Below are positions 56,312 through 63,947 of a stretch of 64,000 nt of DNA, one piece after another. Location: the NCBI RefSeq assembly GCF_000316625.1, contig NC_019676.1:1847001-1911000 (forward strand), given 5' to 3'. A program made the translations under genes and the position numbers. This stretch comes from Nostoc sp. PCC 7107 (GTDB taxonomy: Bacteria > Cyanobacteriota > Cyanobacteriia > Cyanobacteriales > Nostocaceae). The notes below the pieces were generated by a model. It worked only from the letters and a program-made list of their open reading frames with translations, was not told the DNA's origin and did not search any database. How positions within the stretch are numbered: the stretch's first letter is position 1; each line of letters begins with the position of its first letter.

Positions 56312-57202
56312 TTAAGTAAACTGCGAACCCAAAATCATCGTCCCAATCCCAACGTCAGTAAAGATTTCGAGTAATAGGGCGTGAGGAATCCGACCATCGA
56401 TAATGTGTGAAGCCTTGACTCCTTGAGCAAGCGATCGCACGCAACAATTAACTTTGGGAATCATCCCCCCACTGACTACACCACTAGTAATCAGTTCTCG
56501 TGCTTCCCGAATATCTACTTTTGGAATCAACGTAGACGGGTCTTGATAATCTTTTAAAATCCCTCTTGTATCGGTCAGCAAAATCAACTTTTCTGCCCCC
56601 AGCGCCGCAGCAATTTCTCCAGCAACGGTATCTGCGTTAATGTTATAAGCCTGTCCCGACTCGTCGGCGGCAACACTCGACACAACGGGAATATAGCCAT
56701 TAGTTGAAAGGGTTTCTAAAATTTTGATATTAACACCGCTGACTTCGCCTACAAAGCCGATGCCTTCTTGACCTTGGGGACGGGCAGTAATTAAATTACC
56801 ATCTTTGCCACATAGTCCCACAGCCAAACCACCAGCTTGGTTAATCAAAGAAACAATTTCTTTATTAACTCGACCGACTAAAACCATTTCCACAACATCC
56901 ATTGTGGGCGCGTCGGTAACTCGCAAACCATTTTTAAATTGCGGTTCGATGCCTAATTTATCTAACCAACTGTTGATTTCTGGGCCGCCACCATGCACCA
57001 GAATCGGCCGCAAGCCAACACAAGATAAAAAAACAATATCGCGGATCACCTTGTCTTTGAGGGTGCTGTCTTTCATCGCCGCACCACCATATTTGACAAC
57101 TACAGTGCGTCCTGCAAATTGTTGAATGTAAGGTAGCGCTTCGCTGAGTACCCGCACACGAGTAGCTTCAGCTTGCCTGATATACTCAATATCGTTGACC
57201 AT
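56312..57202 (-). CDS. argB: Acetylglutamate kinase
   Basis: ArgB phosphorylates N-acetylglutamate in arginine synthesis; in cyanobacteria it is the enzyme bound and activated by the PII protein. This 296-residue protein has VVKYGGAAM at the N-terminus, [10 protein letters not shown] (about 69-78), the [29 protein letters not shown]/substrate block, and SGGMIPKV near the C-terminus. The N-terminal helix before VVKYGGA, needed for the hexamer, is present. Cytosolic. No other arginine gene is adjacent. Confidence 0.96.
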
Positions 57203-57316
57203 CGTGGTTGAGATTTAAAACTTATGCAGTCAGTGTAGAAGACTTTTTCACCACTCACAATCTCTCTGTTAGGGCTGACGGGTGAAAACGAAAATTCACG
57301 GCTTTAAGTCAAGCAG

Positions 57317-57442
57317 GACTTACACAAAAATAACGTAACTCCGTCATTACGAGGGATAGGGAAGTAATCCCTCCTAACGATGGGATTGCTTCCCTACACT
57401 CCGTTCCAGTCGCAATGACATTATCGGTGTTGCGTAAGTTCT
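57317..57442. repeat. MITE-like palindromic repeat element
   Basis: A 126-base element has imperfect terminal inverted repeats (GGACTTACACAA at the left; TTGCGTAAGTTC at the right). Nested inside are GTCATTACGAG/CGCAATGAC and GGGAAGTAATCCC/GGGATTGCTTCCC arms, so the whole folds into one long hairpin. The CGTCATTGCGAGG-like core is a well-known dispersed cyanobacterial repeat. It lies in the 382-base gap between argB and the caspase-lipase gene. The rest of that gap shows no gene. Confidence 0.65.
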
Positions 57443-57584
57443 ATCAAGGTTACAGGAGGGATATATGTGTTGAAACCTCTTAAATTTTCCTGAAAACAAA
57501 ACTTTACACCCAGTTTCAAAAAATAACAGGTAACTGACCGTGATCTAATTTACGGTTATAAATACATATATGAGATAAGTATCT

Positions 57585-60500
57585 ATGCCTAGAATTTATG
57601 CTTTACTAGTTGGTATTAATAATTACCATCCTGATTCTCAAGGAGTTAGTGCCTTAAATGGTTGCGTTAATGATATCGAAGCAATAGAAACATATTTACG
57701 TAACCGAATTGCTAGTGAAGATCATTGGGAATTAGTAGAAGACGCTAAATCTCCTTGGAAGCTAACAAATGAATTGGCAACACGTCAAGCAATTATTGAT
57801 GGATTTCAGCAGCATCTATGCAATGCTGGTAGTGAAGATGTTGTATTGTTTTATTATGCAGGTCATGGTTCTTTTGAAGCAGCCCCAGAAGTTTTTTGGA
57901 ATATAGAACCAGACCGTAAACTTGAAACATTGGTTTGCTATGATAGCCGAACTAAAGAAGGTCGAGATTTAGCAGATAAAGAATTAAACTATTTAATTGA
58001 ACAGGTAGCAAAGAAAAATCCACATATTTTAATTATTTTGGATTGTTGTTATTCTGGCACAGCAACAAGAGTGCCAGAAGTTAGAGAATGTCAAACGCCT
58101 GGAGATAGACGAGTCAGAAATTTAACCGAATTTATTTTTCCAGCAGAATGGCTGAATCACCGCTTAAGTAATAATTATCAGCTACCAAGACATATTGCGA
58201 TCGCGGCTTGTCGTTCCCATCAAACAGCAAAAGAGTATACAGGTGAAGATGGTAAACGGTATGGATTTTTTTCGTATTTTCTCATACAGGCATTGCAACG
58301 GACTAACAGTAATTTATCATATACAAATTTAATCCGAGATATTAACGCCTTAATCACTGGTAAAGTTAACGAGCAGTCACCGCAAATAGAAGCACCATCA
58401 GAGGATTTAAGACAAATTTTCTTAGGCGGTGCGATCGGTGAATCTCCAAATTACTTCACTCTAACTTATGACGACCAAAATCAGCATAGTTGGGTAATTA
58501 ACGGTGGTATCTTACATGGTATTCGCCCAACTTCTGAAGGACAAACTTTATTAGCAATTTTTCCCCAAGGAAGTAAACCTGAACAGTTGCGCCAAATCTC
58601 TGAAGCAATTTGTCAAGCTACAATCACTCATGTAGAAACAGAAATTAGCAAAGTTGAATTAAACGACGATAACGTCAACTTATCTCAAGATGAACCTTAT
58701 TGGGCAGTTATTACCGATGTACCTCTACCGCAGTTAAAAGTATATCTTAAAGGTGATGATGTCGGTGTAGAACTAGTTCGTCAAGCTCTTGCAACATCTG
58801 ATAGAAATAAACCTTCCTTGTTTGTTCGAGAAGCAGAATCATCTCAAAATACAAATTATTATGTAGAAGCTACTAACGGTCAATACTGGATTTTAGAAGC
58901 TGCTGATAAACATCCTTTAGTTGCACCTGTTCCCGAAATACCAGATACGCAAGCATATACCAGACAACGTGCAGAACAAATCATCAGACGTTTAGAGAAT
59001 ATAGCACGTTGGACAAATATTTTAGAAATGAAAACTCCACCTACTAGTCAAATTAAAGCTGGAGATGTGGAGATGGAAGTGATTATTACCTCTGGAAATC
59101 AACAATATTCCTCACAACAGGAAATTGCCGAGATGCGGGGAGAATACACCTTGAGAAATAACAGGCTAGAACCTCCACAAATTGAAATAAAAGTTACGAA
59201 TCACAGCGAACAAGACCTATATTTTCAAATATTAGAATTAGCGGAAAGTTATGCAATAGATATACCTAAATTCTTTATAGATGAAAGTAGTATACGTTTG
59301 CCTAAAAGCGATAGTGAAGGAAGCACTGTTAATAGTAAAAGAGTAAAATTTAAAATTAATGATACCTACTTAAAGAATGGAATTACAGAATATAACGAAA
59401 TTTTTAAATTAATTGTTAGTACTAGAGATTTTAATGCGAGCTTGCTTAAACAAGCAGGTCTTGATTCTCCACCTCCTATACATCGTTCCGTAGGTTTATC
59501 AGGCGCTCTCAACCGTTTAATGAACAAAGTTTATACTCGTGAGGCTGATTATAGTGATGAATATATTGATAACTGGATGACTCAGGAAATTAAAGTTATT
59601 CTAGTCAGACCACCAGGGGGGGTAGAAATAAAACAATCAGAACCTACTCTAATATTTCATGGTGTCCAACTACATGGACATCCAAGTTTTAAGGGAAAAT
59701 TTAGCCTCAGTTCTTTGCCTCCCAGTAGTCGATATATAAATAGCAAATTATTGCCACCTATTCTCCTCCAAGACCAAAACTTGGCTCAACCATTTGAATT
59801 CAATACTACTCGTAGTCCTGAAAGATTAAACGTTTTAGAAGTAACTGATGTCGAAAATTACGCAGATGTCACACCAGAAAATCCCATCACAATAGTAGTT
59901 AGCACATCAATAACACCAAACGAACATATATTACCAATTGGATATGATGGAGAGTTTTTCCTACCATTGGGTAAAGCCAAATTAGTCAATGGCAAAACAG
60001 AAATCGTCTTAGAACGCTTACCTCAGCCAACAATAGATAGTCGGAGTTTACAAGGTTCAATTAAGATACTATTTCAAAAACTGCTTTATCAAACTTTAGG
60101 CAAAGATTTTCCCTATCCACTTGTGAGAGTAGTAGAAGTTTCATCAAATGGATATGTGTCTTATCAAGACAAGAAAGAAATTATTAAAACCAAGGTCGAA
60201 GCATCTGAGAAAATTTTACTCTATATTCATGGCATCATCGGTGATACAAAAAGTTTAGTCACCAGTGTTAAAGAAGCAAGATTGATAGAAAATGGACAAC
60301 AAATAACCCTAAGAGACAAATATGATTTAGTTCTCGCTTGCGACTATGAAAATCTGCATACCACAATTGAAGAAAACGCTGAATTACTCAGAGGAAGATT
60401 AGCAGAAATTGGGTTAGGAGCCAACCACAAAAAACAATTACATATTGTTGCTCATTCAATGGGTGGTTTAATTTCCCGCACTTTTATTGAAAAAGAAGGG

Positions 60501-61079
60501 GGAAATCGAATAGTACAACACTTAGTTATGTTAGGTACACCTAATGCAGGTTCTCCTTGGCCTAACATTCAAGATTTGGCTTTCGCATTTCTGGGGATTG
60601 GATTGAATCAACTGTCTTCAGTCATTTGGCCGACAAAAATTATTGCTGCATTAGTCGCATTTTTAGAATTAAACGATCGCGCTTTGGATCAGATGAATCC
60701 CGAAAGTTCTTTTATCCAAAGCCTCTCTACAAATCCTGACCCTGGCGTTAAATATACCATCATTGCAGGCGATCGCTCGATTCGTCCAGAAGCATTACAA
60801 ACTGAACCTGGAAGAAAATCCAGCCAGATACAGCGACTTATACAAAAGCTGTTTGGCTCAACTGTAGATGGTGTAGTAGATTTGGTATTTCTTCAACAAG
60901 CAAACGACATAGCGGTGACACTAGAAAGTATTAAAAGTGTCAGTTTAAACCGTACACCCCAACCCAGAATTATTTTGCCAGACACAGCTTGCGATCATCT
61001 TACCTACTTTACTAGCCAACATGGCTTAGAGGCATTAGTAACAGCCCTGTGTGACAATTCTGAAATCTCAAATGAATAA
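57585..61079 (+). CDS. Caspase-like protease fused to a lipase-like alpha/beta hydrolase
   Basis: This 1164-residue protein begins with a caspase (peptidase C14) domain, about residues 3-280: ALLVGINNY, catalytic His94 in YYAGHGS, and catalytic Cys155 in ILDCCYSGT. A mixed beta-rich region (about 290-880) has no recognised family. The C-terminus is an alpha/beta hydrolase: oxyanion LLYIHGIIGD, nucleophile Ser958 in VAHSMGGL, Asp1095 in VDGVV and His1138 in CDHLTYF. There is no signal peptide or membrane helix, so it is cytosolic. Both active sites look intact. Bacterial caspases act in cell-death and defence pathways; fusion to a lipase suggests the protease regulates a membrane-attacking or ester-cleaving effector. 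It lies 220 bases before the CHAT-ATPase gene. Confidence 0.85.
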   Translation: MPRIYALLVGINNYHPDSQGVSALNGCVNDIEAIETYLRNRIASEDHWELVEDAKSPWKLTNELATRQAIIDGFQQHLCNAGSEDVVLFYYAGHGSFEAAPEVFWNIEPDRKLETLVCYDSRTKEGRDLADKELNYLIEQVAKKNPHILIILDCCYSGTATRVPEVRECQTPGDRRVRNLTEFIFPAEWLNHRLSNNYQLPRHIAIAACRSHQTAKEYTGEDGKRYGFFSYFLIQALQRTNSNLSYTNLIRDINALITGKVNEQSPQIEAPSEDLRQIFLGGAIGESPNYFTLTYDDQNQHSWVINGGILHGIRPTSEGQTLLAIFPQGSKPEQLRQISEAICQATITHVETEISKVELNDDNVNLSQDEPYWAVITDVPLPQLKVYLKGDDVGVELVRQALATSDRNKPSLFVREAESSQNTNYYVEATNGQYWILEAADKHPLVAPVPEIPDTQAYTRQRAEQIIRRLENIARWTNILEMKTPPTSQIKAGDVEMEVIITSGNQQYSSQQEIAEMRGEYTLRNNRLEPPQIEIKVTNHSEQDLYFQILELAESYAIDIPKFFIDESSIRLPKSDSEGSTVNSKRVKFKINDTYLKNGITEYNEIFKLIVSTRDFNASLLKQAGLDSPPPIHRSVGLSGALNRLMNKVYTREADYSDEYIDNWMTQEIKVILVRPPGGVEIKQSEPTLIFHGVQLHGHPSFKGKFSLSSLPPSSRYINSKLLPPILLQDQNLAQPFEFNTTRSPERLNVLEVTDVENYADVTPENPITIVVSTSITPNEHILPIGYDGEFFLPLGKAKLVNGKTEIVLERLPQPTIDSRSLQGSIKILFQKLLYQTLGKDFPYPLVRVVEVSSNGYVSYQDKKEIIKTKVEASEKILLYIHGIIGDTKSLVTSVKEARLIENGQQITLRDKYDLVLACDYENLHTTIEENAELLRGRLAEIGLGANHKKQLHIVAHSMGGLISRTFIEKEGGNRIVQHLVMLGTPNAGSPWPNIQDLAFAFLGIGLNQLSSVIWPTKIIAALVAFLELNDRALDQMNPESSFIQSLSTNPDPGVKYTIIAGDRSIRPEALQTEPGRKSSQIQRLIQKLFGSTVDGVVDLVFLQQANDIAVTLESIKSVSLNRTPQPRIILPDTACDHLTYFTSQHGLEALVTALCDNSEISNE

Positions 61080-61145
61080 ACTGCCTTATAAGAAACCTCC
61101 TGTATGAATCATATTTTGTTTACTGAACAGATAAATTTTCTATAG

Positions 61146-61173
61146 TTCTTTGCGTCTTTGCGCCTTTGCGTGA
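61146..61173. repeat. Tandem TTTGCGY heptamer repeat
   Basis: Three units of CTTTGCGT/C in a row, of the short tandem repeat type known from heterocystous cyanobacteria, sit in the 220-base gap between the caspase-lipase and CHAT-ATPase genes. Confidence 0.65.
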
Positions 61174-61299
61174 GACTTAAAATTCTTGTTATTTAGCATT
61201 CGTGCAGGAATTTTAATATCCCAAATCAAGGTTTTTGGGACAAAATGTATAAAATAGTCACAATTTAATCTGGCCGCTGACTCAGCAAAAAATATCAAA

Positions 61300-63876
61300 A
61301 TGGTTAAAAAAAGAGTAATCTTATTTTTAGCAGCAAGTCCTAAAGATACACCACCACTAGGTTTAACGAAAGAAGTAAATGCCATTCAGGAAGAATTGCA
61401 AAAATCTAAACATCGCAACAAATTTGACCTCCAGCAGAATTTAGCAGTGCAAGTTAGCGATATTCGACCGCAAATGTTTAGGATCAAGCCACAGATTGTT
61501 CATTTTTCTGGACACGGGGCGGGAGATGAAGGTCTGGTATTTTTCGATGATCAAACTAATCAGTCAAAGACTGTCGATGCACAAGCATTAGCAGAATTAT
61601 TCCAGCTATTTCCGAGTGTGGAGTGTGTTGTACTTAACGGCTGTTACTCGAAAATACAGGCCGAGGCGATCGCCCAACACGTCAACTATGTGATAGGTAT
61701 GGAAAATGTGATTTCAGATGAAGCTGCCATTAAATTTGCTAGAGGTTTTTACTCTGCTCTAGGATCTGGGGAATCATTTGAGGCGGGATCTGGGAAATTA
61801 TTTGAGGTGGCATTTGAACATGGTTGCAGTGAAATTCAGATGGCAGGTCTTGGAGAACACCTAACTCCACGGTTAATCAACAAGCGTGATATTGATGAAA
61901 CAACAGAGACTTCCCAGCCATCTCCAACTCAATTAAAACCTTCACCATCGCTTACAGCTAAAGCAGCTAGGGAGCCTCTACCTGAAAGTCTCAAGAATTA
62001 TGGATTGATTGAAATCACAGCAAAGTTTCTTGACGAAGAAGCTAAGAAAATTACTGCCGATTTAAGAGCCAGATTTTTTGATGTGTACGAACCAGGCTGG
62101 CCAGAAGCAATGGATGAAAAGATTCCACGTCGCGATATGGTAAATAAATTGGTAGGTTTCTTAAACAGATCAAAGTCTGGATTACGTGTGACGTTGTTAC
62201 TTGGCCCTGGATGCGAAGGTAAATCAACTGTATTACGTCAGACTGTTTGTTGCTTAGTTAAGCCTGAGACTAGCTCTAATTTTCGCATTATTTGGTGGGA
62301 AGCAGATGACCCAAAAAACCTTGAACACTTTAAGATTCTTTTAGGGCAATTACCTCTATCAAATATTCAAGAGAAATGGTTGATAGTTTTTGATGATCCT
62401 TCTACACAACTGATTAAAATAATTTATAATCTATGCTGTGAATCTTTAGGTCGTCGAGATATTGAGTTTTTACTTTGCTGTCGAGATACTGTGTGGAAAA
62501 CTTATGGCGAAAAACTAGGGGGCGGAGAGCGGAACTGTTGGGAAAAGCATCTGGAAGCTCCACAAGAAATGGGTGAATTGACAGACGAAGAAGCAAAAAA
62601 AATTATCAGAGCTTGGAAAGCAGCAGGCAAATTAGAATATCAAGATGAGGATGAAGCTAATCTTATCCATAAATTACTGGAAGAACAGAAATCAGACACT
62701 GAAAGATTTTATTTAGCAGCTATGCTGCGGATTTGTGAAAATAAAACTGTAGAAGAAGGAGTACAATGGCGACTAAAAAAAATACTGACAGATATTAAGA
62801 AAAAACCAAAATATCAATTAATTCTAGATGCCTATGCTTGCATAGTAGCAATGCACAAAGAAGGACTCCGTTATTTAAAACCACATGTTTTAGCTAAGGC
62901 AATTGACTATAATAAACCAACTCAGTTACGTTCAGATATTCTAGAAGAGCTTGGCAATGAAATTATTTTGCCTGAAAAGGAGAAACAGCCGATTTTAACA
63001 CGTCAGCGAAGTATAGCAGAGGTTGTCTATGAGCTTATGTCGCACTCTCCTTACTCAATAGATTTTGAGGATAAAATATATCCTAAATTAGCTACATCTG
63101 CTCAGAAATTGCTAGGTACTGTCATTGACAGAAAAGGGCAAGAGATACATAACTGGCAATATCACTTTCCAGGTCACTTTGCTAATAACGAACCTAAAAG
63201 AATTGATTTAGCAATTAGAATTGCCGAAAAGTTGTACTCAGAAAACATAGACGAACACCTTCTTACTAATTTGGCTCAACTTTGTCGTGACAATGGTAGA
63301 AGTGATAAAGCTGTAGATATCTTCCGAAAATGCACTTTAGAAAAGAAGGATAGAAAAGTTTACCATACATGGGCTTTGGCAGAATACGAAACCAATAACT
63401 ATGTAAATTCTGTATGTCTATGTGAGTTTGCCTTAGCTAAGAGTACAAGACCTGTACTTGATGGTGAAAGCATCATGATTTACCTCTCAACTGTGGGACT
63501 TGCTTTTGATGGCTTATGTAAAAATTCTGGTGATGTTTATGCACAAGCATTAGGTGCGTCAGCACAACTTGGATTAAAAATTGCTCCAGGAGTTAAGTTT
63601 AACAAAGACCCTGAAGATAAACAGAAGATGAAAGCAATAGAGTACCTAAATAAAAATATTGACCGCGCTAGAGACAATGGTATTACTGTTGCTAAACTTG
63701 AGCCAAAAGCATTGAAAACACTATTTAAAAATCTTCAAACTGGATTTAATAAAGTTAATCAAAGTTTTTTTGAGAAGATGCACCAGGATAGTGACGCAGG
63801 CGTAGAGGAATTGCTCGAACAATTAAATGAATTAACATTTGAGAATTTGAAGCAAGCGTTAGGTATACCCGAATAA
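61300..63876 (+). CDS. CHAT-like protease fused to a STAND-type P-loop ATPase and helical repeats
   Basis: In this 858-residue protein, the first 195 residues form a CHAT-type caspase-fold protease with His72 in VHFSGHG and Cys115 in VVLNGCYS, then a hinge. From about residue 280 lies a P-loop ATPase: Walker A GPGCEGKST (302-310), Walker B WLIVFDDPS (about 360-368) and a sensor-like FLLCCRD. A helical region and TPR-like repeats near 680-760 (NLAQLCRDNGRSDKAVDIFRKC) complete a STAND-like layout: sensor repeats, switch ATPase and effector protease. There is no membrane segment. It follows the caspase-lipase gene on the same strand. An eight-residue duplication sits in the protease domain. Confidence 0.82.
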   Translation: MVKKRVILFLAASPKDTPPLGLTKEVNAIQEELQKSKHRNKFDLQQNLAVQVSDIRPQMFRIKPQIVHFSGHGAGDEGLVFFDDQTNQSKTVDAQALAELFQLFPSVECVVLNGCYSKIQAEAIAQHVNYVIGMENVISDEAAIKFARGFYSALGSGESFEAGSGKLFEVAFEHGCSEIQMAGLGEHLTPRLINKRDIDETTETSQPSPTQLKPSPSLTAKAAREPLPESLKNYGLIEITAKFLDEEAKKITADLRARFFDVYEPGWPEAMDEKIPRRDMVNKLVGFLNRSKSGLRVTLLLGPGCEGKSTVLRQTVCCLVKPETSSNFRIIWWEADDPKNLEHFKILLGQLPLSNIQEKWLIVFDDPSTQLIKIIYNLCCESLGRRDIEFLLCCRDTVWKTYGEKLGGGERNCWEKHLEAPQEMGELTDEEAKKIIRAWKAAGKLEYQDEDEANLIHKLLEEQKSDTERFYLAAMLRICENKTVEEGVQWRLKKILTDIKKKPKYQLILDAYACIVAMHKEGLRYLKPHVLAKAIDYNKPTQLRSDILEELGNEIILPEKEKQPILTRQRSIAEVVYELMSHSPYSIDFEDKIYPKLATSAQKLLGTVIDRKGQEIHNWQYHFPGHFANNEPKRIDLAIRIAEKLYSENIDEHLLTNLAQLCRDNGRSDKAVDIFRKCTLEKKDRKVYHTWALAEYETNNYVNSVCLCEFALAKSTRPVLDGESIMIYLSTVGLAFDGLCKNSGDVYAQALGASAQLGLKIAPGVKFNKDPEDKQKMKAIEYLNKNIDRARDNGITVAKLEPKALKTLFKNLQTGFNKVNQSFFEKMHQDSDAGVEELLEQLNELTFENLKQALGIPE
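61762..61809 (+). repeat. 24-base tandem duplication inside the CHAT domain
   Basis: Two adjacent 24-base units (61762-61785 and 61786-61809) differ at three positions. They encode GSGESFEA and GSGKLFEV. Related proteins usually have only one such segment (GAGKSxEF-like) before the closing helix, so one unit is an in-frame insertion. Confidence 0.85.
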
Positions 63877-63947
63877 TCAAGTACTTAAAAAACAAAATTT
63901 AGAACCAGCAGAGATACATATAGAGTAGCGATCGCTCAATTTTCTCC

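Follow-up and report, generated by a model that had tools for sequence, protein, structure and literature searches.

The two-gene locus

The window analysed here is a stretch of 64,000 nucleotides from Nostoc sp. PCC 7107 (contig NC_019676.1, positions 1,847,001 to 1,911,000), a member of the family Nostocaceae whose genome of 6.33 Mb is a single contig, and its last two complete large genes form a pair that may constitute a two-protease switch for cell death. Gene A (57585..61079, 1164 amino acids) encodes a caspase followed by two middle regions and an alpha/beta-hydrolase, and gene B (61300..63876, 858 amino acids) encodes a CHAT protease, an nSTAND5 ATPase, and a TPR-like C-terminus; both lie on the + strand, with 220 bp between them (61080..61299). 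An earlier sequence-only reading of the window had described two large same-strand genes, each with a caspase-fold protease and intact His and Cys residues, and this description is confirmed in position, in strand, and by domain scores above the Pfam cut-offs.

The caspase domain of A (residues 5-270, 57597..58394) matches Pfam Peptidase_C14 over its whole span at an E-value of 1.2e-20, with 74.6 bits against a cut-off of 21.4, and its dyad, His94 (57864-57866) and Cys155 (58047-58049), is kept in all of the 91 distinct family proteins compared, namely the window's A and 90 relatives (one truncated relative was excluded from the alignment). The catalytic Cys adjoins Tyr156 (58050-58052), a position held by His in 89 of the 91 proteins, and Cys169 (58089-58091), in the p20-p10 loop, corresponds to Arg in all 90 others. 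The caspase is followed by a middle region (residues 286-680, 58440..59624) that hhalign finds to be common to caspases of about 700 amino acids without a hydrolase, and by a second middle region (residues 681-865, 59625..60179) that is absent from relatives of about 680-700 amino acids and has no Pfam match. The alpha/beta-hydrolase domain (residues 866-1164, 60180..61076) is recognised as DUF7379 (E 1.6e-14, 54.8 bits against a cut-off of 33, residues 878-994), and Ser958 (60456-60458), Asp1108 (60906-60908), and His1138 (60996-60998), kept in 90, 91, and 90 of the 91 proteins, respectively, are taken as its putative triad. The lipase-like triad noticed in the sequence-only reading finds support in these results, with "lipase" to be read as a fold assignment; the similarity to lipid enzymes is confined to sub-threshold LCAT and PGAP1 matches. 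A hydrophobic stretch lies at about residues 995-1029, within the hydrolase, and a simple hydropathy scan finds no strong membrane-helix candidate in either A or B (top 19-residue mean 1.54).

The CHAT domain of B (residues 5-195, 61312..61884) exceeds the Pfam cut-off over residues 23-158 (E 4e-8, 33.5 bits against 24) and aligns at E 1.9e-12 to chain 8tl0, described as SAVED-CHAT in PMC11417357, over a span that includes both catalytic motifs, His72 (61513-61515) and Cys115 (61642-61644). The nSTAND5 NTPase (residues 258-406, 62071..62517) scores 113 bits against a cut-off of 34 (nSTAND_NTPase5, PF25199, E 1.3e-32) and carries the P-loop GPGCEGKS at residue 302 (62203-62226). The C-terminal helical region (residues 641-858, 63220..63873) is the candidate sensor; every TPR match in B falls under the Pfam cut-off, so that, of the P-loop ATPase and the helical repeats proposed for this protein from the sequence, the former stands firmly and the latter remain weak. 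In the gap between the two genes, no terminator-like site is found on the + strand, and a single weak promoter-like match occurs at 61119-61146. A short stretch of TTTGCG-type units at 61145-61175 in the same gap resembles, by eye, a dispersed cyanobacterial repeat.

Recurrent pairing of A with a second peptidase

The neighbourhood of A was compared across 100 loci from the family, comprising the listed full-length A matches and some partial or B-related loci, to which 32 listed full-length A loci from outside the family (drawn from the order sample, partial matches excluded) were added; peptidase domains were called with hidden Markov models (HMMs) built from seeds taken on these loci. The set holds 124 A genes including that of the window, of which two frame-broken copies (loci L121 and L203) were dropped from the counts, the apparent caspase upstream of each being discounted as a piece of the broken A gene, and 10 of the remaining 122 run off a contig edge, leaving 112 testable genes. 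A caspase or CHAT peptidase is encoded downstream of A or fused to it in 66 of these (59%): 61 have a same-strand caspase or CHAT gene within two genes downstream, as the immediate neighbour in 55 cases (median gap 117 bp) and as the second gene in 6 more, and in 5 the peptidase is fused. With each 85% cluster represented by its first A gene, pairing is seen in 46 of 74. By comparison, a downstream peptidase follows 16 of 236 control genes from these loci, 2 of 87 from eight arbitrary loci within the family, and 8 of 30 peptidase genes other than A (7 further ones, at contig edges, were excluded); the Fisher p values of the clusters against these three controls are 4e-22, 3e-18, and 0.001, respectively. 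Pairing as a mere by-product of peptidase clustering is therefore rejected, since the non-A peptidase genes are paired in just those 8 cases.

In all five fusions (L101, L102, L165, L167, and L207) the second caspase, called with the same HMMs, comes after A. Pfam reads the remainder of L102 as caspase, nSTAND1, and periplasmic-binding domains in this order, and that of L101 includes nSTAND1 and WD40 among the best 25 of 40 families. On the other side of A, the 35 same-strand genes of 250-420 amino acids lying within 600 bp upstream split into unrelated groups, the largest with 7 members; hence no conserved third gene is found there and no upstream gene belongs to the core. As a separate observation, L086 (4074-5819) and L160 (4387-6102) carry an extra DUF1400/PAF-acetylhydrolase-like gene between A and the caspase gene, and the caspase beyond it is a 217-amino acid fragment in L086 and an open reading frame running off the locus in L160.

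The partners are diverse. Counting every position, 70 were found, 61 downstream, 5 fused, and 4 upstream of A, and 56 of them are caspase-nSTAND1 proteins with or without a WD40 or periplasmic-binding domain, while the others are TPR-CHAT (4, two of them upstream of A), CHAT-VMAP (3), CHAT-nSTAND5 (2), and CHAT-AAA_35 (2) proteins; three are unassigned, namely the caspase fragment of L086 and the two dropped frame breaks. Most of these second peptidases carry a recognised sensor or NTPase part, and in L111 CHAT partners flank A on both sides. A FastTree tree of 81 A proteins was built from cluster representatives, with paired members preferred where available, L086 labelled after its mate L137 in the same 85% cluster, and the long plasmid rows L218 and L219 left out. 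The changes that it requires number at least 8 in partner type, 17 between paired and unpaired states, and 3 between fused and split states; L098 and L100 sit on long branches and their placement is unsure. The window's A belongs to a clade of 13 rows with a support of 100, in which the 6 paired rows all have CHAT proteins as partners, with differing sensors.

The shared core and the caspases without hydrolase

Residues 1-675 of A match seven caspases of about 700 amino acids without hydrolase from end to end (hhalign, probability 100, E 2.4e-54), so that A can be described as a caspase-plus-middle core to which a further region and a hydrolase have been added. The PADLOC "caspase" model matches residues 3-426 of the window's A and almost the entire length of a 701-amino acid relative. 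At least 6 of the 8 paired peptidase genes other than A are caspases of about 700 amino acids from the set sharing this core, so that pairing characterises a larger group of caspases, within which A forms the branch with a hydrolase. The other two (L234 and L238) are TPR-CHAT genes, each followed by a caspase of about 690 amino acids that matches the first 320-360 residues of A; these two caspases were not included in the profile of the group. In L233 (6076-12469), a caspase of about 700 amino acids is followed by a CHAT-GUN4 gene and, farther on, by a separate LCAT-type hydrolase gene, an arrangement that is possibly an unfused version with a tetrapyrrole sensor.

Distribution, joint insertion and divergence

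Within the family, matches to A at E 1e-10 occur in 132 of 217 genomes (partial matches counted, best 3 candidates per genome). At E 1e-60, the sample of the order has matches in 49 of 388 genomes and that of the phylum in 10 of 386, all 10 belonging to the same order as the window. Matches covering 98-99% of A are also carried on plasmids, two of them outside the Cyanobacteria, in Rhizobium ruizarguesonis and Deinococcus aetherius, and two in Anabaena sp. 90 and a lichen Nostoc. On the plasmid of Anabaena sp. 90, which belongs to the same family as the window, a TPR-CHAT gene lies directly downstream of A, and on the Deinococcus plasmid a same-strand caspase gene lies two genes upstream of it. 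One scan of viral contigs with a 13-row alignment of A finds no relative.

The sensor part of B has a distribution of its own. Its nSTAND5-TPR part is fused to a caspase rather than to CHAT in three genomes (G008, G206, and G029), so that different systems share this sensor. In G008, the nSTAND5-TPR-caspase gene (L089, 8072-11127) lies beside a small gene read as EACC1-like, which has no Pfam hit, and in G206 (L090, 8060-11354) it lies beside a gene with a Pepco domain.

In the window, A and B occupy an insert of about 57266..63927, between a gene at 56312-57202, which reads as argB, and a gene for a 186-amino acid protein that starts near 63936: homology to empty sites stops near 57265 on the left and picks up again near 63928 on the right. 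In the 9 further genomes of the genus that were compared, the argB-like gene and the 186-amino acid gene adjoin each other, at a distance of 66-302 bp except in G160, where it is 1012 bp. In the window's genome and in that of Nostoc sp. CHAB 5844 (G165), the same gap measures about 6.6-6.7 kb, and its open reading frames of at least 90 amino acids are A and B alone. As the flanking genes stand next to each other in those 9 genomes, A and B were either gained together or lost together, and this joint insert, together with the 66 of 112 A genes that are paired or fused and the five cases in which both proteins form a single chain, supports the claim of the sequence-only reading that A and B make up a functional module.

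In G160, the same site (L228) carries about 1 kb of other DNA with, by eye, a possible small secreted protein, and the site may be one for variable cargo. In the leader of A, a segment of about 130 bp (57314-57443) is not present at the same place in the locus of Nostoc sp. CHAB 5844 (L009), and its ends form by eye an imperfect inverted pair; a miniature inverted-repeat transposable element was considered here and rejected, as a repeat search gave no inverted repeat reaching 12 bases.

Relation to described systems

A close precedent is the family of VMAP systems, whose caspase-bearing VMAP proteins are reported always to have an adjoining alpha/beta-hydrolase gene, with a suggested joint action (Kaur et al. 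2020, PMC7159879). As far as that account of the ternary system goes, a peptidase-bearing sensor protein stands beside an alpha/beta-hydrolase gene both there and here, and in three loci (L113, L122, and L123) A itself adjoins a CHAT-VMAP gene and an AAA_5 (MoxR-like) gene, whereas most partners of A are STAND proteins. No VMAP domain is found in A or B at E 0.1, for which reason the assignment of the pair to VMAP systems is rejected, and VMAP-C (PF20028) has no match in the window's genome at E 1e-8. The statement of the sequence-only reading that no described system contains such a pair was nonetheless too strong, since Kaur et al. 2020, in the parts that bear on this point, had already reported that VMAP-caspase genes have an alpha/beta-hydrolase gene as a neighbour, and a system of the sort represented by A and B was to that extent partly foreseen.

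The same paper describes EACC1-associated caspases, to which a likeness exists through B, whose nSTAND5-TPR part is elsewhere fused to a caspase near an EACC1-like or Pepco gene. No EACC1-like gene is seen by eye beside A and B, the neighbour on the A side reading as argB, and A is rejected as an EACC1-associated caspase because it reaches 47.5 bits on NF047832, for which the cut-off is 140. Pairs of EACC2 and caspase, together with nSTAND1, are described by Kaur et al. 2021.

SAVED-CHAT, for its part, is reported to work through a proteolytic cascade (PMC11229360). B is rejected as a member of this group, because the PADLOC SAVED_CHAT model is matched at its positions 300-444 of 498 only, which are here read as the CHAT part, and Pfam gives nSTAND5 in place of a SAVED domain, of which none is found. 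The likeness lies in a CHAT protease as the initiator, encoded with a caspase-like protein, and in the alignment of the CHAT domain of B to 8tl0. The substrate of SAVED-CHAT in type III CRISPR (clustered regularly interspaced short palindromic repeats) systems is a caspase-like protein. In contrast, B would sense through a STAND NTPase, and the caspase of A carries a hydrolase.

In canu systems, a caspase activates a pro-nuclease, and trypsin-like partners also activate pro-nucleases, according to a 2025 paper (PMC12799240). The principle of a caspase that activates a partner enzyme encoded alongside is shared, while the canu partner, as presented there, is an MBL-fold nuclease and here a caspase-hydrolase fusion is found; no MBL-fold nuclease domain is detected in A or B at E 0.1, and the pair is therefore rejected as canu. 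The main text of a 2021 survey of 473 cyanobacterial orthocaspases, so far as it was available, never mentions hydrolase, lipase, or esterase, and the other related papers, within the portions accessible, name parts of the system and not the pair of A and B. A caspase-hydrolase fusion with swappable sensor-proteases appears in none of the titles or abstracts found, a weak evidence of absence given the thin coverage of the subscription literature.

A candidate two-protease switch and its alternatives

The pairing is genuine and extends beyond what the sequence-only reading had noticed, and a plausible mechanism can be built on the domains of the two proteins. Specifically, A and B may act together as a switch of two proteases that leads to abortive cell death, with B as the sensor and initiator and A as the executioner, a reading to which a probability of about 0.5 is assigned. 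The C-terminal region of B would read a trigger, probably derived from a phage; its nSTAND5 ATPase would then oligomerise and bring the CHAT proteases together, which would thereby become active; activated B would cut A, as the sequence-only reading had proposed, or gather copies of A, so that the caspase of A is switched on and the alpha/beta-hydrolase is exposed or freed; finally, the caspase and the hydrolase would degrade the proteins of the cell and, most probably, the lipids of its membranes, and so kill it. The direction of cleavage, the oligomerisation, the lipid substrate, the phage trigger, and the death of the cell are predictions, and the steps follow what is generally known of such proteins: STAND proteins oligomerise upon sensing, and caspase-fold proteases are activated by proximity or by cleavage. 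In the fused proteins, the STAND and sensor parts lie at the end of the chain away from A, which fits a series of events in which oligomerisation makes the second peptidase active and this, in turn, acts on A. The recurring pairing, the joint gain or loss, the preserved catalytic residues, the neighbouring peptidases on the Anabaena and Deinococcus plasmids, and the precedents of SAVED-CHAT and canu also speak in favour of the switch. Extended to all partners, the scheme becomes that of a conserved executioner, with a caspase and a lipid-cutting hydrolase of its own, switched on by at least five interchangeable kinds of sensor-protease, as a bacterial equivalent of the cascade from initiator to executioner caspases, and in this general form it is put forward more tentatively, as a possibility to which we would lend somewhat less than even credence.

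Several results weigh against this switch. The sequence-only reading had tied its case to the adjacency of homologues, and the outcome is mixed: most A genes adjoin a peptidase-sensor gene, but full-length B is found in 2 of the 217 family genomes only (that of the window and G165, adjoining A both times; best 4 candidates per genome), and for 46 of the 112 testable A genes no partner lies downstream, with a TPR-CHAT gene upstream in 2 of these cases. In the clade of the window's A, 7 of the 13 rows, including the frame-broken L121, are unpaired, although the representatives favoured paired members. Pairing is not unique to the hydrolase form either, as the control loci of the caspases of about 700 amino acids have a downstream peptidase in 6 of 10 cases and an upstream TPR-CHAT in 2 more. 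On the Rhizobium plasmid (L218, 5196-12474), the two-gene unit that ends in CHAT is divergent from A and not downstream of it, with conjugation genes near. The distances among A proteins do agree with those among their caspase-nSTAND1 partners (Mantel r 0.73 over 39 pairs, 0 of 5000 permutations), which counts for the switch, but common descent alone could produce this agreement.

The sequences of the two proteins add further points on the same side. No conserved cut site precedes the hydrolase, in that no Arg or Lys of the window's A at residues 836-885 is kept in more than 95% of the rows, and the conserved Arg and Lys residues of A lie outside this stretch. In the p20-p10 loop, R178 is present in 89 of 91 proteins and R169 in 90 of 91, with the window's A as the sole exception at the latter; a maturation cut of A at R178 would be a reasonable guess. 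Compared with G165, the one close relative of B, the ratio of nonsynonymous to synonymous substitution rates (dN/dS) is 0.31 for A and high, 0.69, for B. Lastly, the synonymous difference from the same relative (L009) is patchy along the pair, with values for A of about 0.32 over the first half, 0.11 in the second middle region, and 0.18 in the hydrolase, for B of 0.03-0.11 over the CHAT and STAND parts and 0.21 at the C-terminus, and for the flanking genes of 0.27-0.29; the pattern likely reflects a recombination tract, and the dN/dS of B is for this reason to be read cautiously.

Of the other explanations, the one that survives best is that A and the gene beside it encode separate effectors, neither of which cuts the other, and that the two are carried along together in regions rich in defence genes. 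Peptidase genes are indeed common in these loci (16 of 236 distant genes have one downstream), a good many A genes lack a partner, and B has matches at E 1e-10 in 169 of the 217 family genomes, nearly all of the listed ones covering the CHAT part alone. The spacing, however, is tight (median 117 bp), the order is mostly constant, and five fusions occur; the sensors are swapped while A is conserved, and A and B are gained or lost jointly. On balance, independence is rather unlikely, though it deserves to be kept in mind beside the switch. Less probable still is a module that serves development or stress-induced cell death of multicellular cyanobacteria instead of phage defence. In its favour, the strong matches in the phylum sample (10 of 386) all fall within a single cyanobacterial order, which is rich in filamentous species, and orthocaspases are discussed in connection with cyanobacterial cell death. 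Conversely, the patchy presence, the variable insertion site, the plasmid copies, and the turnover of sensors resemble those of accessory conflict genes. The least favoured explanation, a reverse cascade in which the caspase of A regulates, cleaving and activating or limiting B, with the hydrolase of A as a separate output, can invoke the 5' position of A in most pairs, its N-terminal place in all five fusions, and an Asp two residues before its catalytic Cys (D153, 91 of 91), presumably a mark of Arg/Lys-specific metacaspases, but it appears improbable because it is B and its analogues, and not A, that carry the NTPase and the varying sensor portions, which makes B the better-placed trigger.

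If the two-protease switch is correct, cell death in cyanobacteria of this order would proceed, as in animals, through a cascade of proteases in two steps, a single executioner being served by many exchangeable sensors. The part that orthocaspases play in cyanobacterial death is debated, and they would thereby acquire definite partners, triggers, and outputs amenable to experiment, while the conserved executioner would offer a handle for finding further defence systems.

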